Source of the DNA: Clostridium sp.
GTDB taxonomy: Bacteria > Bacillota > Dethiobacteria > Dethiobacterales > Dethiobacteraceae
Reading direction: 5' to 3'
DNA: 64,000 nucleotides
Assembly (NCBI GenBank): GCA_018335695.1
Contig: JAGXRV010000045.1
Coordinates: 1 to 64,000 of the forward strand
Positions 8,036-56,123 of this stretch are shown here, one piece after another. Within the stretch, counting starts at the first letter, position 1. Every line of letters begins with the position of its first letter. The notes under the pieces were generated by a model that saw nothing but the letters and a program-made list of their open reading frames with translations, made no database searches and had not been told where the DNA came from. Both the position numbers and the translations under genes were made by a program.

Positions 8036-8290
8036 TATAAAAAATCCCTTCACCCCTCTTGAGGTAAGGGGCGAAAGGATTTCTTCCGCGGTACCACCCT
8101 TATTCTCCGGTTTCCCGGACTCTAGGCTAAGCTGCTGTAACGGGCAGAACCCGACCGTTCCTAGAAGCCGACAGGCGTTCAGACGGTAGCTTGGGGATGA
8201 CTTTCTTCTCGACTGTTTACCGGTTCACAGCAGCCACCGGCTCTCTGAAAAACAAGCCAGGAGTACTCTTCCCTTCATAGCAATTGAGTG
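8036..8290 (-). promoter_or_regulatory. T-box leader of the ilv-leu operon, probable valine (GTC) specifier
   Basis: On the minus strand the leader contains the invariant T-box sequence AGGGTGGTACCGCGG (8086-8100). It is followed by a long terminator stem (8042-8083) ending in a T-run. T-box RNAs read uncharged tRNA: pairing of the NCCA end with the T-box opens the terminator. In the Stem I part, the segment GAAAGTCATCCCC (8194-8206) resembles specifier loops, in which the codon is followed by ATC. This makes GTC (8199-8201, Val) the best reading, with the next ATC (Ile) as alternative. An AGAGTA motif lies near the 5' end. It should couple the seven downstream biosynthetic genes to tRNA charging. 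Confidence 0.93.
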
Positions 8291-20064: not shown

Positions 20065-20087
20065 CTTGATTTAGAGGGGGATCATTG

Positions 20088-20759
20088 ATGATAACCGCCA
20101 TAGGAGATATTTTAAATCAGATATTGTTGACTTTTGATCGTTTTACCGGAAATTATGCGCTGGCAATTGTCTTGCTTACACTGCTTGTTAGGCTGGTTAC
20201 TTGGCCATTAACGAATAAGCAATTGGTCTCTGCGAAAGCTGTGCAAGAACTGCAGCCGGAAATCAAAAAATTGCAGGAGAAATATAAGAACGATAAGGAA
20301 AAATTGAATGCGGAAACAATGGAGTTGTGGAAGAAGCATAAGGTGAATCCTGCAGCCGGTTGTCTGCCGCTATTGATTCAGATGCCTATTCTTTGGGCAA
20401 TGTTTAATGTTTTGAGGGAGCCTCCGTTGGAAGTGCAGAATTTTATTTTGTTTGGCGTTGATATGCGGCTTTCTGTTAACGATCTGCAGGCCGCCGGTTT
20501 AACGTTCTCGTTAGCAGCACTAGGTTATTATTTGCTTGTAGCTCTTTCAGGAGCAACTACATATGTTCAGCAGAAAATGATGATGACCGACAAGTCGCAA
20601 CAAGCTTTGTTGATTTTTATGCCGATAATGTTATTATATTTTAGCCTGCAGTTTCCAGCCGGACTGGTTCTTTACTGGGTAGTTAACAATGTACTATCGA
20701 TTGTGCATCATTTTCTGATTAACAGACACCCAGCGAAGGGAGCGGTAACTGAAAAATGA
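20088..20759 (+). CDS. yidC: Membrane protein insertase YidC/SpoIIIJ/Oxa1 family
   Basis: 223-residue insertase with about five membrane segments and the conserved groove arginine (Arg35 in VRLVTWPL). The cytoplasmic charged loop KKLQEKYKNDKEKL and the CLPLLIQMPILWAMFNVLR segment are family marks. Unlike B. subtilis SpoIIIJ, no clear lipoprotein signal precedes the first segment. The ATG at 20088 was chosen over a TTG one codon earlier because it is 7 nt after AGGGGG. It overlaps jag by 4 bp. Confidence 0.97.
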   Translation: MITAIGDILNQILLTFDRFTGNYALAIVLLTLLVRLVTWPLTNKQLVSAKAVQELQPEIKKLQEKYKNDKEKLNAETMELWKKHKVNPAAGCLPLLIQMPILWAMFNVLREPPLEVQNFILFGVDMRLSVNDLQAAGLTFSLAALGYYLLVALSGATTYVQQKMMMTDKSQQALLIFMPIMLLYFSLQFPAGLVLYWVVNNVLSIVHHFLINRHPAKGAVTEK

Positions 20760-41128: not shown

Positions 41129-41273
41129 AGAAAAATTAATAAAGTTATTAATTTTTTGCAGGAATATTAAAAAACACGGAGAATTATTTAAAAAAATAAC
41201 ATATGATTTAGAAATGAACATCAGAAAAATCCGGAAGAATAGTTTCTTTCTGGGAGTCGTAGCGGGGTGTAAG

Positions 41274-42788
41274 ATGCGAAAACAACAACTGGTGGCCATG
41301 GTGCAGGCAACAAAACAGAAACTGCAAACAAGCCTTGCTCTATTGCACCGTCGTGTGATTGGTTTGCCTGAGTCGGCGGGCTTGCTGACTGCAATGCTGG
41401 GGAAGTTTTGCAAAGCTGTCACAAAAAATGAACTGCTAAAAAAGTGGGATTTTCCGTTTTTGGTTAAACGCATTGCGGTTTTGTTGGCAATTTTGATGCT
41501 GACCGTGGGGTCGGTGGGAGTTTATGCTCATTTAGAATCTTTTACATACGTGGTATATCTTGACGGAGAAGAAAAAGGCTATGTGTCAAGTGATACTGAA
41601 TTTTTGGCTTTTGTGGCAGAGCTGACGGTGCAGGCAAAGGAGCGTTACGGCTTACAAGTCAGACCTGTTCAGGAGGTGCGAGTTGAACGGGAGCAGCGCA
41701 GAGATGCCGAGCCCAATGACTGGGGCGTAAGGGATCAGGTAAGGCAGGTTTTGATTTTTGATGTATATGCCTATGTTATTACCGTAAACGGCAAAGACAC
41801 TCTGGCTGTGCGGCAGTATGAGGACTACGAAAAAGTTATCGAGGAGTTAAAAGCTGCTTATGCCGGAGGCAAGGAGAATGCAGTTATCCGGGCTGTGGTA
41901 ATTGATGATAATGTGGAGGCACGGAAAACGCTGGTGGATCCTGCCGCCCTCTATACTGTGGATAGAGCGGTCGAGATTTTGCGCCGAGGAACCGACAGGC
42001 GTGAGGTATATTTAGTCTCACGTGGTGACTCCCTCTGGACGATTGCCCGCCAAAATAATATGACAGTCGACGAGATTCAGGAAGCTAATCCCCAACTTGC
42101 AAGTGCCGAGCGGATTAAACCGGGCGAAGAAATTAATCTGGTGGTGGCAGAGCCTTTGGTTGATGTTTCTGTCACCCAGGAAGTGGTTTTGCAGAAGCAG
42201 ATTCCCTTTGAAACAAGATATCAAAATGACAACAAGTTATTCAGAGGGAATACAAGAGTTATCCAACCCGGCCAACCTGGCATAAGAGAAGTGACCGTAA
42301 GTATTACACAGAAAAACGGCAATGAAGTGCAGCGGGAAGTTATTGACGAAGTAGTTGTTAGAGAGCCTCAGGAACAGATTGTGGCTCGCGGTACGGCTGC
42401 CGTTCCTCCCCAAATAGGAACAGGACGTTTCCTTTGGCCGGTTTCAGGCGGGAGGATTTCCTCTCCCTTTGGCCAGCGCGGCAGGAGCTTCCACGCAGGC
42501 GTGGATATTGCCGCAGCCCACGGCACCGCTATTTTAGCGGCTGACAGCGGAGTAGTTACGGCAGCAGGTTGGAATGGCGGATTTGGCATCATGATTATTA
42601 TTGATCACGGTAACGGTACGGCTACACTGTATGCCCACAACTCGTCTAATCTGGTCACTGTGGGACAGCGGGTGAAACGTGGGCAGCAAATTGCCCGTAT
42701 TGGCAGCACAGGTAATTCTACCGGCCCTCATGTCCACTTTGAGGTGCATCGCAATGGCTCGCAGGTTAATCCAATGCAATTTTTCTAA
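41274..42788 (+). CDS. Cell-wall peptidase with LysM, G5 and M23 domains
   Basis: 504 residues from the ATG at 41274 (GGGGTG just upstream); a further in-frame ATG at 41214 has no RBS. A single membrane segment lies at about 64-84, so the bulk is outside. Then follow a domain of unknown type, LysM (VYLVSRGDSLWTIARQNNM, about 243-287), G5 (about 291-371), and a C-terminal M23 endopeptidase with zinc ligands in FHAGVDIA and HVHFEVH. M23 enzymes cut peptide cross-bridges of peptidoglycan. It lies 1.2 kb upstream of walR; wall hydrolases are classical WalR targets, but no WalR box is visible in its own upstream region. Confidence 0.95.
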   Translation: MRKQQLVAMVQATKQKLQTSLALLHRRVIGLPESAGLLTAMLGKFCKAVTKNELLKKWDFPFLVKRIAVLLAILMLTVGSVGVYAHLESFTYVVYLDGEEKGYVSSDTEFLAFVAELTVQAKERYGLQVRPVQEVRVEREQRRDAEPNDWGVRDQVRQVLIFDVYAYVITVNGKDTLAVRQYEDYEKVIEELKAAYAGGKENAVIRAVVIDDNVEARKTLVDPAALYTVDRAVEILRRGTDRREVYLVSRGDSLWTIARQNNMTVDEIQEANPQLASAERIKPGEEINLVVAEPLVDVSVTQEVVLQKQIPFETRYQNDNKLFRGNTRVIQPGQPGIREVTVSITQKNGNEVQREVIDEVVVREPQEQIVARGTAAVPPQIGTGRFLWPVSGGRISSPFGQRGRSFHAGVDIAAAHGTAILAADSGVVTAAGWNGGFGIMIIIDHGNGTATLYAHNSSNLVTVGQRVKRGQQIARIGSTGNSTGPHVHFEVHRNGSQVNPMQFF

Positions 42789-42801
42789 AAATGTTAACGA
42801 C

Positions 42802-42838
42802 AGAACCGTTGCTGGATTCCGGTACGGTTCTTTTTTTA
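42802..42838 (+). terminator. Intrinsic terminator after the M23 peptidase gene
   Basis: AGAACCGT (42802-42809) pairs with ACGGTTCT (42824-42831) followed by seven T. Confidence 0.9.
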
Positions 42839-42885
42839 TCGTAAATTGTCTGCTGATTGTCTTTGTCATCTAAAAACAACCTGAC

Positions 42886-42918
42886 TGTAATCTGGCTGTA
42901 ATATTGGCACGATATAAT
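42886..42918 (+). promoter_or_regulatory. WalR-type box and promoter
   Basis: TGTAAT-N5-TGTAAT (42886-42891, 42897-42902) is a perfect fit to the published WalR/YycF direct repeat TGTWAH-N5-TGTWAH. A perfect -10 TATAAT is at 42913-42918. The matching -35 position (42890-42895, ATCTGG) is poor and overlaps the repeat, as expected for an activator-dependent promoter. The spacing also resembles a PHO box (CTGTNAT repeats of 11 bp), so a PhoB/PhoP-type regulator is the alternative. walR itself lies 1.1 kb downstream. Confidence 0.72.
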
Positions 42919-42924
42919 AATAAT

Positions 42925-42983
42925 AAGTTTGACCCCCTCTTAATCTATTTTTCTCTCGAACGTGGGCTTCCACGTTCTTTTTC
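42925..42983 (+). ncRNA. Predicted short RNA of about 58 nt, from WalR-type promoter to terminator
   Basis: The predicted transcript starts near 42925 and meets a perfect 8-bp terminator stem (GAACGTGG 42958-42965, CCACGTTC 42970-42977, loop GCTT) followed by TTTTTC. No ORF with a start and RBS fits inside. Its 5' half is single-stranded and pyrimidine-rich with CCCCCTCT at 42933-42940, complementary to the AGAGGGGG ribosome site of the next gene (43057-43064). It could be a small regulatory RNA or an attenuated leader. It is predicted from sequence only. Confidence 0.5.
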
Positions 42984-43037
42984 TGTTCAATTCTGTATCT
43001 AATACCTGCCATTTCCAGTGAAAGAGAAGAGAGAATT

Positions 43038-43046
43038 TGTTATGAT
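43038..43046 (+). promoter_or_regulatory. Extended -10 promoter of the peptidase-MA-like gene
   Basis: TG-N-TATGAT with no good -35. It would give a very short leader starting near 43053, just ahead of the AGAGGGGGG ribosome site. Confidence 0.45.
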
Positions 43047-43073
43047 GCAGGTGGGGAGAGGGGGGTTAAGAGA

Positions 43074-43946
43074 ATGCCGTTAGCTGAAGTTAGGATAAAA
43101 AAAAGAGCAATTGTCGCTTCAGCACTATTTTTGCTTGTTTTGCTAAGCCCGTATATCTCAAATGCTTTCCAGACTGTTTGGCAGACTGCCACGCTTATCT
43201 CTGTGCGCTCTCATTATCTGAGGTGGTCATCAATGGAAACGGAATATTTTCAGCTGCGCTATTTGCAGGAAGAACTGCTGTTGGCTGAGAAAATCGCTAA
43301 AGAGGCAGACAGGGTCGTGATAAAAGTTGCTGAATTGATTCCGCATGCCGCCGGGAAAAAACGGCCATGGCTCATTGTCGTTCCCAACCAAGAAATATTG
43401 AGGGAGGCTTTCGGCTGGGGAAGTGAAACGGGGGCGCTTGGTGTCTATTTGGCGGAAACTATAAAAATTCTTTCGCCAATGGAGTGGCATTGGTATCCTG
43501 AATCCAAGCGTTGGCAGATGTTTGTCAGCCAAGGTCCGCTTGTTCATGAGTACGCTCACTTTGTCTTAGAGTTACGGGCAAGGGGAAATTATCCTCGCTG
43601 GTTTAGCGAGGGTTTTGCCCAACTTATTGAGTATCATCTTTTAAGTTATGAATGGTTGGAAGCAGACAGTTCCCTGGCAAATCGCCTCTATTCTCAGGAC
43701 GAGCTTGATCATTCGTTTAACGTGCTGCCTCGGCAGGCTCTTGCCTACCGACAGGCATTGAGTATGGTCAGTTACCTGGAAACGTTGCGGGGGTTAGAGG
43801 GTCTAAATCAGCTGCTTGACAAGTTAGGTGAGGGCGAACCGTTTTATCAAGCTCTGCAACAGGTTTATGGGTTGAGTCGGGAAAACTTTCGACAGGGCTG
43901 GGAGGTCTGGGTTGGCCAAGACAAACGCTGGTTAAGGGCGGGCTAA
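43074..43946 (+). CDS. Peptidase-MA-like zinc metallopeptidase, membrane-anchored
   Basis: 290 residues. N-terminal basic stretch and hydrophobic segment at about 12-32 (signal anchor). The zinc motif HEYAH lies near residue 160 and the downstream glutamate in RWFSEGFAQLIEY about 25 residues later, the gluzincin arrangement of peptidase-MA-like proteins. ATG 8 nt after GAGAGGGGGG. Substrate unknown; its place ahead of walR and an extracytoplasmic domain suggest an envelope role. It may be linked to the WalR-type element upstream. Confidence 0.85.
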   Translation: MPLAEVRIKKRAIVASALFLLVLLSPYISNAFQTVWQTATLISVRSHYLRWSSMETEYFQLRYLQEELLLAEKIAKEADRVVIKVAELIPHAAGKKRPWLIVVPNQEILREAFGWGSETGALGVYLAETIKILSPMEWHWYPESKRWQMFVSQGPLVHEYAHFVLELRARGNYPRWFSEGFAQLIEYHLLSYEWLEADSSLANRLYSQDELDHSFNVLPRQALAYRQALSMVSYLETLRGLEGLNQLLDKLGEGEPFYQALQQVYGLSRENFRQGWEVWVGQDKRWLRAG

Positions 43947-44021
43947 GTTTGCTTTTCTGACGTGCAGGAAATACGCACTCTAGATAGAAGCTATAGTCAA
44001 AAAGCGTGATGAGGTGCCTTG

Positions 44022-44720
44022 ATGACGCGGGGGAAAATATTAGTTGTGGATGATGAAAAGCCGATTGCAGAGATATTGCGTTATAATCTGGAGCAGGAAG
44101 GTTTTACTGTGATAGTGGCTTATGACGGAGAACAGGCTGTATGGCAAACAAAGACTCAGCATCCGGAACTAATTCTGCTTGATATTATGCTGCCGAAGCA
44201 GGACGGGTTTGCTGCTTGCCGGGAAATCCGGAAAATCAGCAATGTGCCTGTTATTATGCTGACAGCTAAGGATACAGAACTGGATAAAGTTCTGGGGCTG
44301 GAGCTGGGAGCCGATGACTATGTTACTAAGCCGTTCTCGGCACGGGAGGTTGTCGCTCGGGTGAAAGCACAGTTGCGTCGCAATCAGTCCAAGGAACAGG
44401 CGGCTGCCGGGCTTTTGTTTTGTCAGGATTTACAGGTGGATACCGGACGGATGGAAGTGCTAAAGGCAGATCAGGTCATTGACCTGACATATCGGGAATA
44501 TTTGCTTTTAGTTTATTTAATGAATAACGCCGGTTATGTAATTTCCCGGGAAAAGTTACTCTCGGAAGTCTGGGGTTATGACTTTTACGGTGATGAAAGA
44601 ACTGTTGATGTGGCAATACGCCGTTTGCGGGAGAAGATTGAAGAAGATCCCAGTCAGCCGTGCTACATCCGTACAAAAAGGGGAGTCGGTTACTACATTC
44701 GGAGAGAGAGTCATGTTTAA
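44022..44720 (+). CDS. walR: Response regulator WalR (YycF)
   Basis: OmpR/PhoB-type regulator, 232 residues: receiver domain 1-118 with phospho-acceptor Asp54 (LILLDIMLP), conserved Thr and Lys in MLTAKD and TKPF, and a winged-helix domain with DLTYREYLLLVYL and DERTVDVAIRRLREKIE. The ATG lies 5 nt after GAGGTG. Assigned as WalR rather than PhoP because walK, walH, walI, walJ, htrA and rlmH follow in the standard order. It controls cell-wall hydrolase genes and is essential in Bacillus and Staphylococcus. Confidence 0.95.
   Translation: MTRGKILVVDDEKPIAEILRYNLEQEGFTVIVAYDGEQAVWQTKTQHPELILLDIMLPKQDGFAACREIRKISNVPVIMLTAKDTELDKVLGLELGADDYVTKPFSAREVVARVKAQLRRNQSKEQAAAGLLFCQDLQVDTGRMEVLKADQVIDLTYREYLLLVYLMNNAGYVISREKLLSEVWGYDFYGDERTVDVAIRRLREKIEEDPSQPCYIRTKRGVGYYIRRESHV
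44541..44554. other. Candidate Noc-binding site inside walR
   Basis: ATTTCCCGGGAAAA differs at one of 14 positions from the B. subtilis NBS ATTTCCCGGGAAAT. In Bacillus such sites are mostly in coding sequence spread over the chromosome. Whether the Noc encoded at 25748 uses this motif is unknown. Confidence 0.45.
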
Positions 44721-46521
44721 GAGTATGCAATGGAAAATTGCCTCTATTTATGCTCTGCTGATCCTCTTTGCCATGCAATTTTTTGTCGTCTTTCTTACTC
44801 AGTCTCTGGAACAGTATTATCTTCGCACATATTCGCGCAATCTGGAGGCTCAGGGATTACTTCTTGCTAACTTTCTGGAACGATATCTGACGGGCACAGA
44901 TGAAAACAGCGCTATTGACGGATTGGTGTTAGAATACTCCCGCCAAGCCGGCATTACTGATATTATGGTACTGGATAGTTTTGGACGGCTTATTTCTTCT
45001 TCCCGGACGGAAGCCGGGCTGCAGGGGCAACGAATTGTTCAGGAAGAAATTACTCGTGCCCTGACAGGCAGCCGTAGCGGGGAAATACGGTTTAATCAGG
45101 AGACGAGGGAACGGGTAAAGCATTTGGCTCTGCCGGTGCGCTCCGGTGAGAAAACGATGGGCGTCGTCTATCTAAGCGGCTCACTCGAGCCCCTTTATGC
45201 CACACTAAGGGAAATACAGTTAATTTTTCTCACAGGTGCTGTCTTAGTCATCGGCGTGACAGTTTTGCTCGGTTTTCTCTTGGCCAGAAGCATTACCGGT
45301 CCCATTCAGGAAGTTACCGCCAAAGCGGCTCAAATTGCTCACGGTGATTTTCGCCAACAAATTGACGTGCGTTCCCATGATGAAATAGGGCGTCTGGGAG
45401 AAATGTTTAATTATCTTTCTCGGCAATTAGACGTTACCCTACAGGAGATGTCTTCGGAGAAAGGAAAGATGGAAGCGATTCTGAGTCATATGACAGACGG
45501 TATTGTTGCTTTGAACCGCGACGGCAAAGTAGTGCATTTAAACCCTACGGGTTATAATTTGCTTGGACTTACTCCCGGAGAAGAGCCGCCAGCAGCTGTG
45601 CTGTCGCAACTGCTGACCCAGGTTGACTTGTCCGCGCTTTTAAATAACGGCAGGCAGCAAAATCGCGAAATAAACTTGACTCCTCACAGAAGGACTATCC
45701 TGGCCAGTTATGTGCCGTTTCACACTCAGGAACAGACTGATTGCGACTTATCTTCAGGCGTGTTGATTATTTTGCATGATATCAGCAAGGAACGGGAATT
45801 GGTGCAGATTCAAAAAGAGTTTGTGGCAAATGTGTCTCATGAACTGCGGACACCGCTTACCACACTAAAAAGTTATACTGAAACGCTTTTAGGGGGAGCA
45901 ATGTATCAATCGGACACGTGCTTCTCTTTCCTTGTCACTATGGAAAAAGAAACGGAACGGATGGTTCGTTTGGTGAAAGATCTGCTGGTTTTGTCACAGT
46001 TCGATTCTCAGCAGGTTGCCTGGCGTCATCTTTACCAACGTTTGGATGAACTGGTGTTGGAAGTAATCAACGAGCTGGAAATTGAGTTTGCAGCCGAGCG
46101 GCCAAACATGCTCGTAACGCTGCCTGAGGCACCGCTTTATTACTGTTTTGACAGAGATAAAATTAAGCAGGTTTTGCTCAATGTGATTCAGAATGCTTTT
46201 AAATATACCGGTCAAGGTGGGGAAGTTGCTGTTTTGCTGGAAGACCTTGGTTCTGCGATTACAATTCTTGTCAAGGATAATGGTATCGGAATCCCGCTTG
46301 AGGAAGTGGACAGGGTTTTTCAACGTTTCTACCGGGTGGATAAGGCTCGTTCACGCGATTATGGCGGCACAGGCCTTGGGTTGGCGATTGCGCGGGAGAT
46401 AGTTGAGGCGCATGGAGGCACAATTGCGCTGACCAGCCAACCGGAGCGAGGGACAGAAGTGCGGATTTGTTTACCTTCTTCGCAGGCAAAAGGAGGCAAA
46501 GAGCAGTGCGAGAGCGCGTAA
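44713..46521 (+). CDS. walK: Sensor histidine kinase WalK (YycG)
   Basis: 602 residues. Two membrane segments (about 13-30 and 169-192) enclose an extracellular sensor domain; HAMP follows (190-243), a PAS domain (250-355), HisKA with the phosphorylated His376 in VANVSHELRTPL, and HATPase_c with NVIQNAFKYT, DNGIGIP and GGTGLGLAIAREI. ATG overlaps walR by 8 bp after GGAGAGAGAG. It phosphorylates WalR and in Bacillus senses wall metabolism and division. Confidence 0.96.
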   Translation: MFKSMQWKIASIYALLILFAMQFFVVFLTQSLEQYYLRTYSRNLEAQGLLLANFLERYLTGTDENSAIDGLVLEYSRQAGITDIMVLDSFGRLISSSRTEAGLQGQRIVQEEITRALTGSRSGEIRFNQETRERVKHLALPVRSGEKTMGVVYLSGSLEPLYATLREIQLIFLTGAVLVIGVTVLLGFLLARSITGPIQEVTAKAAQIAHGDFRQQIDVRSHDEIGRLGEMFNYLSRQLDVTLQEMSSEKGKMEAILSHMTDGIVALNRDGKVVHLNPTGYNLLGLTPGEEPPAAVLSQLLTQVDLSALLNNGRQQNREINLTPHRRTILASYVPFHTQEQTDCDLSSGVLIILHDISKERELVQIQKEFVANVSHELRTPLTTLKSYTETLLGGAMYQSDTCFSFLVTMEKETERMVRLVKDLLVLSQFDSQQVAWRHLYQRLDELVLEVINELEIEFAAERPNMLVTLPEAPLYYCFDRDKIKQVLLNVIQNAFKYTGQGGEVAVLLEDLGSAITILVKDNGIGIPLEEVDRVFQRFYRVDKARSRDYGGTGLGLAIAREIVEAHGGTIALTSQPERGTEVRICLPSSQAKGGKEQCESA

Positions 46522-53830: not shown

Positions 53831-53947
53831 TATCAGCAGTGGTTAAAAAGAATGAAACGCTCGAACGGTTTTGCTTCTTGAAGTGACTGAGAGTTTTGAC
53901 GTATTCTTCTTTTTGATGCAAATTATTTTGTAGGAGGCCTTTAACAC

Positions 53948-54148
53948 ATGCAAGGAAGAGTAAAATGGTTTAACGCAGAAAAAGGTTTTGGTTTCATCGA
54001 GAAAAATGACGGTAGTGGAGATGTGTTTGTACACTTTTCCGCAATCCAGAGCGAAGGATTTAAGTCTCTGGAGGAAGGACAAGAAGTTGAGTTTGATGTA
54101 GTAGAGGGCAATCGTGGTCCGCAAGCGGCCAACGTTGTCCGTATCTAG
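53948..54148 (+). CDS. Cold-shock protein (CSD family)
   Basis: 66 residues, a single OB-fold nucleic acid chaperone. RNP1 KGFGFIE and RNP2 VFVHFS are intact. RBS GTAGGAGG. The sequence [15 protein letters not shown] is near the consensus of CspA/CspB/CspD; the sub-name is not decidable. A terminator and then a group II intron follow. Confidence 0.98.
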
Positions 54149-54173
54149 TATAAACTAAACAATTGTCAGCAAG

Positions 54174-54210
54174 TCAGGGTGTTTCCGACAAACGGGAATG
54201 CCCTGATTTT
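54174..54210 (+). terminator. Intrinsic terminator of the cold-shock gene
   Basis: TCAGGG (54174-54179) pairs with CCCTGA (54201-54206), extended by TTCC/GGAA inside, followed by TTTT. The intron begins two bases later. Confidence 0.8.
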
Positions 54211-54211
54211 A

Positions 54212-56123
54212 GTGCGCCCGGCATGGGCGATAGCTTGACGGTGAGAATCCGTTATGGGCATTGCAGTGGGAACCATTAGCCAAGGGCAAGGGTGTCCATC
54301 GTGAGGTGGAATCTGAAGGAAGCCGGCGGCAAAGTCCCGACCCGATGAACAAAAACCACATACAAGGCTGGATTGGGGTGGACGAGTTTGCTAAACAAAA
54401 CGAAGTCCTACACTGCACGAACCCCATCCAGTAAATGCGGCGGGTACATGGGATGAAGGCTATCGTTCTTACCCGGGGATGTCTGGCAGATACGCTGAGG
54501 ATGTGTATTCAGAAACGGCAACCCATGCAGTGATGTATGACTGAACTGTCAGAAGTCAGCAGAGGTCGTAGTACTTCTCCGGACATGTACGGAAGAGGAA
54601 GGACCGAACAATAGGAGGTTTCCCGAAATTGAAAGACACGAAGGAATACGTAGAAGGCAGACAACTTCATAAAGAAGGCTACCTGCAGGAAGTACGAGTG
54701 GAACTCGGAGGTAATGCGGGAGTGCGGAGTATTCCATCCATGTCCGATAAAGACGGAAACGGTGGCAATGAATATGCCGATGGATTACTTGAGAGAATCC
54801 TTGACCGCAATAACATGAACATGGCTTACAAAAGAGTCAAGGGAAACAAGGGCAGTCACGGAGTAGATGGTATGACAGTGGATGAACTTCTACAATACCT
54901 GAGGCAGAATGGCGGCCAAATCAGAGAATCCATACGGAATGGGGAATATCGCCCCAACCCTGTCAGACGAGTAGAAATACCCAAACCTGACGGGGGCAAA
55001 AGACTACTTGGTATCCCTACAGTACTAGACAGAGTGATACAACAAGCCATAGCACAAGTGCTAACCCCAATCTTCGAGAGGCAGTTTTCTGACAACAGCT
55101 ACGGGTTCCGTCCTAACAGAAGTGCAAAACAGGCAATCATGAAATGTAAGGAATACATTGAAGCTGGCTACAGTTGGTCAGTGGACATTGACCTTGCTAA
55201 GTACTTCGACACCGTAAACCATGACAAACTGATGCGATTGTTATCAGAAACCATTAAGGATTCTAGAGTGCTTTCCTTAATACGGAAGTACCTGCAATCC
55301 GGTGTAATGATTAATGGGGTTGTTATGGAAACGGAAGAAGGAACGCCTCAGGGCGGAAATCTGTCTCCATTATTGAGCAACATCATGCTTAACGAATTGG
55401 ACAAAGAGCTGACCAAAAGGGGTCTGAAGTTCTGCCGGTATGCCGATGACTGCAATATATACGTCAGAAGCAGCAAAGCGGCAAACAGAGTCATGGCAAG
55501 TATTACCCGCTTCATTGAAGGAGAGCTAAGGCTCCAAGTCAATCAGAAGAAGAGCACTGTAGACAGGCCATGGAAACTGAAATTTTTAGGGTTCTCGTTC
55601 TACCGTAAAAAAGGTGGAATAGGAATACGAGTTCACCAAAAGCCGGTTGTTAAACTGAAGCAAAGGCTGAAAGAAATAACAGGCAGAAGCAATGCTATGA
55701 GTATGCCCCAAAGGATGGCGAAGCTAAAGCAAGTCATTATTGGATGGGTCAATTATTTTGGCATTGCAGATATGGGTAAACTCGCAAAATCATTAGACAT
55801 GTGGCTTCGTAGAAGGATTCGCATGTGTTTCTGGAAGCAGTGGAAGAAGATCAAAACCAAACACAGCAACCTTATGGCACTTGGTACACCCAAGCACAAA
55901 GCCTGGGAATACGCGAATACAAGAAAGAGCTACTGGCGTACTGCGGGTAGCCCTATCCTTCACAAAACCCTTACTAATGAGCACCTAGCTAAAATAGGTT
56001 TTCAGTCTTTTAGCGAAAGATATTCATTCGTTCATTAATTCTATTGAACCGCCGTATACCGAACGGTACGTACGGTGGTGTGAGAGGACGCTGGATAAAC
56101 TAATTATTCAGCTCCTACTCGAT
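54212..56123 (+). mobile_element. Bacterial group II intron with reverse transcriptase
   Basis: The 5' end GTGCGCCCGGCATGGGCG (54212) is the conserved start of a bacterial group II intron. A structured 417-nt domain I-IV region precedes the ORF. After the ORF, domain V is seen at 56049-56079 (CCGCCGTA/TACGGTGG, inner TACC-GAAC-GGTA), and domain VI ends near CCTACTCGAT (about 56123). It follows directly on a terminator T-tract, the habit of class C introns. The ORF lacks an endonuclease domain, also in line with class C. The exact 3' border is approximate. Confidence 0.92.
54629..56038 (+). CDS. ltrA: Group II intron reverse transcriptase/maturase
   Basis: 469 residues from TTG after AGGAGG. 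RT domain with RRVEIPKPDGGKRLLGIPT, TPIFERQFSDNSYGFRP, FDTVNHDKLM, TPQGGNLSPLLSNI and the catalytic YADD (in FCRYADDCNIY); the maturase (GIIM) domain follows (LKQVIIGWVNYFGIADM). No HNH endonuclease domain at the C-terminus. It is intact, so the intron could be active. Not related in composition to the flanking chromosomal genes. Confidence 0.97.
   Translation: MKDTKEYVEGRQLHKEGYLQEVRVELGGNAGVRSIPSMSDKDGNGGNEYADGLLERILDRNNMNMAYKRVKGNKGSHGVDGMTVDELLQYLRQNGGQIRESIRNGEYRPNPVRRVEIPKPDGGKRLLGIPTVLDRVIQQAIAQVLTPIFERQFSDNSYGFRPNRSAKQAIMKCKEYIEAGYSWSVDIDLAKYFDTVNHDKLMRLLSETIKDSRVLSLIRKYLQSGVMINGVVMETEEGTPQGGNLSPLLSNIMLNELDKELTKRGLKFCRYADDCNIYVRSSKAANRVMASITRFIEGELRLQVNQKKSTVDRPWKLKFLGFSFYRKKGGIGIRVHQKPVVKLKQRLKEITGRSNAMSMPQRMAKLKQVIIGWVNYFGIADMGKLAKSLDMWLRRRIRMCFWKQWKKIKTKHSNLMALGTPKHKAWEYANTRKSYWRTAGSPILHKTLTNEHLAKIGFQSFSERYSFVH

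Follow-up and report, generated by a model that had tools for sequence, protein, structure and literature searches.

A conserved, uncatalogued small RNA gene upstream of walRK and its probable control by WalR

WalRK is an essential and nearly universal regulator of cell-wall turnover in the Firmicutes and is a drug-target candidate. In the 64,000-nt stretch of Dethiobacteraceae DNA analysed here (the window), a promoter and an intrinsic terminator stand close together upstream of the walRK genes. Does this short unit encode an RNA in its own right or is it the leader of the genes behind it, and what would control such an RNA and be controlled by it? The original prediction, made from the sequence of the window alone, was of an independent short RNA under WalR control, with an attenuated leader as the alternative.

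A short transcription unit upstream of walRK

The element at 42886-42982 and its neighbourhood contain the following features.

41214-42788: M23/G5/LysM peptidase gene, upstream (Pfam)
42802..42838, + strand: terminator (hairpin and T run) of the upstream M23 peptidase gene, read from the sequence
42864..42869, + strand: outer half-site TGTCAT, 22 bp upstream of the distal half-site
42886..42891, + strand: distal half-site TGTAAT of the WalR-like box (TGTAAY in class loci)
42897..42902, + strand: proximal half-site TGTAAT of the WalR-like box; spacing to the -10 exactly 10 bp
42913..42918, + strand: -10 element TATAAT (sequence; conserved)
42925..42982, + strand: predicted small RNA, about 58 nt (covariance-model matches in the class)
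42927..42941, + strand: invariant seed GTTTGACCCCCTCTT, predicted unpaired (15-mer conservation; fold)
42933-42940, + strand: C-rich stretch CCCCCTCT, inside the seed
42942..42957, + strand: linker, A/T- and C/T-rich (family alignment)
42958..42982, + strand: intrinsic terminator, hairpin 42958-42977 and T run (sequence, fold, covariation)
43015..43046, + strand: promoter-like block of the peptidase gene, CCAGTGAA ... TGTTATGAT (9/12 match; family-conserved)
43057..43064, + strand: Shine-Dalgarno region AGAGGGGG of the peptidase gene, seed-complementary, possible target
43074..43946, + strand: peptidase-MA-like gene, ATG at 43074 (PF13485, E 8.7e-12)
44019..44720, + strand: walR (yycF) response regulator gene, presumed regulator of the small RNA (Pfam, NCBIfam)
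44710..46521, + strand: walK sensor kinase gene (Cache_WalK domain; best NCBIfam match WalK, below cut-off)

The coordinates of the box, the -10, the C-rich stretch, the hairpin, the Shine-Dalgarno region and the peptidase ATG were all confirmed. The start of the RNA was predicted at ~42925, 7 nt after the -10, and its end was placed at the T run. Reading of the window from 42400 to 43700 revealed AAGTTTGACCCCCTCTTAATCTATTTTTCTCTC between the -10 and the terminator hairpin, which has the form GAACGTGG-GCTT-CCACGTTC (42958-42977) and is followed by TTTTT. The -35 position (~42890-42896) lies between, and partly inside, the two half-sites of the box. The predicted RNA folds solely into the terminator hairpin (-12.8 kcal/mol, z -3.5, 0 of 200 shuffles), and since this is its only structure, the C-rich stretch is predicted to be unpaired, as had been proposed. 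The box TGTAAT-N5-TGTAAT matched once in the window against 0.22 matches expected, and genome-wide three times against four for a reversed control pattern; being no commoner than that control, the box alone proves nothing.

A mini-frame, TTG-ACC-CCC-TCT-TAA, is present in the window's element, and the possibility of a short peptide was rejected because an extra T interrupts this frame in relatives. No conserved ORF was found between start and terminator, in agreement with the original prediction. Upstream, the terminator at 42802..42838 sets the M23 peptidase gene apart from the small RNA unit. Downstream, the peptidase gene had been suspected of having a promoter of its own, and the block at 43015..43046, which across the family combines an extended -10 with a -35-like part that is conserved and unusual, is consistent with this. 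The interval between the small RNA and the peptidase gene in one locus (L005) contains repeated GGGGTCAGGCTTAACATTTGA units in both orientations, which are REP-like. The best NCBIfam match of the walR product was YycF, at 324 bits and below the cut-off of 340; YycI was identified by Pfam and/or best NCBIfam match and YycH only weakly.

Conservation and independence from neighbouring genes

The exact 15-mer GTTTGACCCCCTCTT was found in 18 of 20 family genomes, in one copy each and in all 12 genera, compared to zero matches for the control. Alignment of related genomes had been proposed as a check, and in the relatives' alignment the box, the -10, the C-rich seed and the hairpin were kept, the hairpin with compensating changes, while most other intergenic DNA had diverged. 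One of the two genomes that lack the exact 15-mer (G015) has a one-base seed variant that the covariance model still matched. In the other (G002) the walRK locus lacks the element, and an insert breaks up the peptidase gene (L019, L011). Here the unit was apparently lost through the joining of two T tracts, from the M23 terminator to the peptidase promoter; the absence together with the interrupted peptidase gene could be a real loss or a product of assembly.

A covariance model built from 18 family RNAs (R1) matched 86 of the 98 genomes of the class Dethiobacteria. A DNA-pattern scan of named genomes yielded 89 stretches, under the names Dethiobacter, 'Syntrophomonadaceae', Clostridiales, Bacillota and Desulfovibrio (twice). 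One contig titled Desulfovibrio sp. (L095, JAGVAS010000131.1) carries the M23-sRNA-walRK locus, and its title looks wrong. Across 91 aligned copies (89 distinct), 98.3% of cells in the terminator hairpin were paired, with 186 two-sided changes. None of 500 shuffles reached the observed covariation, and slid controls were at most 55% paired. The conservation of the whole module, both of the 15-mer in the family and of the model matches in the class, is far beyond chance.

Many copies in the class lie away from walRK, some genomes have several copies, and the class copies that were read carry the same box. At several unlinked copies the downstream gene is on the opposite strand; Pfam confirmed such neighbours as DUF554, M24 peptidase, FMN reductase and SLH protein genes, among others. 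Copies are also common in the class in front of birA-bioY: in one class family (f3) the copy stands there, divergent from another gene (L067, L086, L109). Several genomes have more than one copy.

These arrangements bear on the proposal that the element is an attenuated 5' leader of a peptidase-walRK mRNA, with the hairpin as a regulated terminator and the short RNA as the terminated product. The window and other walRK-linked loci would suit a leader, since there the element lies upstream of the peptidase gene or walR and on the same strand. However, a leader of walRK cannot explain the copies away from walRK or those facing an opposite-strand gene; the element is not always upstream of, and co-directional with, the same genes. 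It also comes after trxB in the Bacillales-like order described below, no alternative fold was predicted, and a promoter-like block of its own precedes the peptidase gene. We therefore regard a leader as very improbable at this locus, and as effectively excluded for the family. The invariant block at +3 to +17 would also suit a repressor site, that is, a DNA operator just past the start site of an RNA without function. Yet the 15-mer precedes a terminator under strong pairing selection, and at the unlinked copies an operator would have nothing downstream to act on but the RNA, which makes an operator a most unlikely reading as well.

The conserved promoter and intrinsic terminator, the conserved seed, the unlinked copies and the corresponding Bacillus locus, from which an abundant 52-nt RNA is reported (see below), strongly favour the originally proposed independent short RNA unit. 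We conclude that 42886-42982 is almost certainly a real small RNA gene. Genome comparison supports the gene, the geometry of its promoter, its terminator, its independence from neighbours and its wide spread.

The class model R2 was used to seek members in other classes and found them. In four such loci (L162, L163, L166 and L177) the element lies between an M23 gene and walRK, and in another (L170) it precedes a peptidase-MA gene and walR. The alignment of a mixed model, R3, was 96.4% paired with 85 double changes. R3 matched 139 of 150 genomes of one order, that of genome G356, at E <= 0.001. Fifteen loci of this order were read. Their seed is ATTGACCCCCTTTT; a TrxB-like gene stands before the element in every one and a NUDIX gene after it in most, and Pfam confirmed the TrxB-type and NUDIX domains in one of the 15. 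This gene order suggests that the order is Bacillales. In an even sample of the phylum, matches were obtained in 78 of 398 genomes at E <= 1e-4, weaker matches being counted by score alone. The small RNA family is widespread in the phylum, though not universal, and is very probably a single homologous family that reaches the Bacillales-like order. The feature first predicted at walRK is real, but it is not local to that locus, as its family spans the class and much of the phylum.

RNA-seq of B. licheniformis identified BLi_r2828, an independent 52-nt RNA between trxB and yvcI with an NPKM of 15,924, which is listed without an Rfam name (PMC3871023). A small RNA of the yvcI-trxB region was also reported in B. 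amyloliquefaciens FZB42, where it was described as potentially homologous to a small RNA of B. subtilis (PMC4634765). The neighbourhood is that of the Bacillales-like copies, and the 52-nt RNA is independent and abundant; on the basis of gene neighbourhood and size, the trxB-yvcI RNAs of Bacillus are probably members of the family. The B. subtilis RNA would be expected to be 50-65 nt long and to start near TTGACCCCC. The Bacillus RNAs differ in being known from transcriptome tables only, without a name, an Rfam entry, a regulator or a function in the papers found, and in the open-licence papers searched no report connects them with WalR, with any function or with other classes. The original prediction had remarked that a WalR-regulon small RNA at this place was not known to have been described. 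The open-licence literature searched indeed contained no WalR-controlled small RNA of this kind, but unnamed Bacillus transcripts had already been seen.

The promoter box and its regulator

Among 90 class loci, part of which were found by a pattern requiring the proximal half-site, the distal half-site is TGTAAY in 77 and an outer TGTNA occurs at the same spacing in 80. In 30 loci found by a promoter-free model, the proximal half-site was present in 29 and the distal one in 27. The spacing from box to -10 is constant at 10 bp. The half-sites conform to the type of WalR motif reported in PMC10746227, and a TGTWAH-N5-TGTWAH-type box, the mark of the WalR regulon, lies at the promoter. Linkage of the element to walRK is seen not only in the window's own family but also in further families of the class and in other classes. 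Because the half-sites match the WalR motif and the linkage to walRK recurs, WalR is the likely regulator, and we consider it probable from these sequences that WalR controls the small RNA. The element resembles the WalR regulon in that its box fits the WalR motif and its gene adjoins walRK; it differs in that the known direct targets of WalR are protein genes. Since the box sits over the -35, we infer activation rather than repression by the regulator.

The promoters of the Bacillales-like order have three half-sites spaced 11 bp apart, TTTAAY, TGTAAC and TGNAAY, which end 10 bp before the -10. The TGTAAC half-site was present in 15 of 15 loci; the proximal site of one (L278) is CGCAAC. Outside the class the half-sites drift to TTTAAC/TGAAAC, which might also be readable by other OmpR-type regulators. 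PhoP- and ResD-type regulators read similar 11-bp-spaced repeats. It is conceivable, if rather unlikely, that the gene is a stand-alone RNA gene whose regulator is another OmpR-type protein (PhoP-, ResD- or similar) and not WalR. The half-sites of the Bacillales-like order, where the locus is not beside walRK, would fit such a regulator, whereas the recurrence of walRK linkage in several families and classes argues for WalR, as do the Dethiobacteria boxes, which conform perfectly to the WalR consensus.

The seed, its possible targets and related small RNAs

The unpaired, conserved C-rich segment is of the kind found in trans-acting small RNAs that pair with Shine-Dalgarno sites. The start sites of 56 window genes gave a mean duplex energy with the seed of -12.9 kcal/mol (sd 3.7), and the two best-pairing genes were yidC (-23.9 kcal/mol) and the peptidase gene (-23.7 kcal/mol). 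The best seed complement of the 56 is the AGAGGGGG Shine-Dalgarno site of yidC (60KD_IMP; 20073-20088). As a conserved target yidC (20088) was rejected, as the strong site was found in one of two same-genus relatives (G003) and was lost elsewhere. Mean energies over the family were -19.6 for peptidase start sites, -14.7 for walR and -13.7 for yidC. The peptidase pairing is supportive and not decisive, since a Shine-Dalgarno sequence rich in G would by itself strengthen the computed pairing. The originally proposed pairing with this gene is good over the family, but the gene does not stand as the sole or main target: most bearers of the small RNA have no peptidase gene beside it, which means that further targets of the seed must exist. 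Only in a single family is the peptidase gene plausible as a target, and that it is a real one we consider doubtful. Pattern searches with the seed complement for a class-wide target gave no clear signal over the reversed control.

We find it reasonably likely that the seed acts by pairing with Shine-Dalgarno sites. Hfq is encoded in 20 of 20 family genomes, which makes an Hfq-assisted mechanism possible. Alternatively, the RNA might not pair with mRNA at all, and its C-rich stretch might titrate an RNA-binding protein or pair with a G-rich sponge RNA. An invariant seed could be a protein site, the class searches found no conserved mRNA target, and G-rich sponge RNAs such as RosA can bind C-rich small RNAs (PMC8216469). 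However, known C-rich small RNAs of Gram-positive bacteria act on Shine-Dalgarno regions, and the seed is unpaired and near the 5' end; we judge titration or sponging improbable.

Three C-rich small RNAs of B. subtilis, RoxS, FsrA and CsfG, were listed in 2021 (PMC8216469). RoxS/RsaE and FsrA resemble the element in having unpaired C-rich segments that pair with Shine-Dalgarno regions (PMC8216469, PMC9266662), but they are longer, have more than one structured C-rich region and are regulated by ResD/SrrAB and Fur. The streptococcal csRNAs are likewise short, similar small RNAs with an OmpR-type regulator, an N5 direct repeat, RBS-complementary segments and duplicated copies (PMC8186281). They differ in their CiaR box (TTTAAG-N5-TTTAAG), their length of 87-151 nt, their regulator CiaR (CiaRH) and their restriction to streptococci. 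Membership of the csRNA family was rejected on the box, TGTAAT-N5-TGTAAT. Rfam 15, which includes RsaE/RoxS, gave no match at gathering score at the element, in the window or at 20 related loci, and permissive scans gave only unrelated weak matches. Elsewhere in the window, the Rfam scan placed a cspA thermoregulator match at 53846-54207, followed directly by group II intron domains (54295-54604, 56047-56123), and a T-box leader and another group II intron domain at 8064-8287 and 46-188, both on the minus strand. Because the box differs from that of CiaR, the RNA is shorter and Rfam has no match, the element, which appears to work like the CiaR-controlled csRNAs and RoxS/FsrA, belongs to neither. 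It represents a new, uncatalogued small RNA family of a known kind, the two-component-controlled C-rich small RNAs.

On balance we favour the following scheme as a whole, though somewhat less than its best-supported parts. The element at 42886-42982 would encode, as a gene standing on its own, a minimal trans-acting small RNA. Its promoter would be activated by a response regulator of the OmpR type, WalR being the most likely, bound to the TGTAAT direct repeats over the -35, and RNA polymerase would make about 58 nt and stop at the hairpin/T-run terminator. The RNA would begin with an unstructured 5' end that holds the C-rich, invariant seed UUGACCCCCUCUU, and would continue through an A/U linker into the terminator. 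While WalR is active, the seed would pair with G-rich Shine-Dalgarno regions and block translation of the targets, possibly assisted by Hfq. The identity of the regulator as WalR, activation over repression, base pairing, the targets and the role of Hfq are the steps that we infer.

One passage of the literature (PMC4409812) calls RsaE the only known trans-acting small RNA besides 6S that is common to S. aureus and B. subtilis, and against this reported singularity a small RNA family across several classes is unusual. The elements may descend from one ancestral WalRK-controlled small RNA, kept from Dethiobacteria to Bacillales as the post-transcriptional arm of WalR, an idea we hold tentatively, at slightly less than even confidence. 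If true, few trans-acting small RNAs of the Firmicutes would be as widely conserved, and WalR could repress proteins whose promoters it does not bind. Because the presumed homologue in Bacillus is abundant and belongs to a tractable organism, its regulator, targets and phenotype are open to direct testing.
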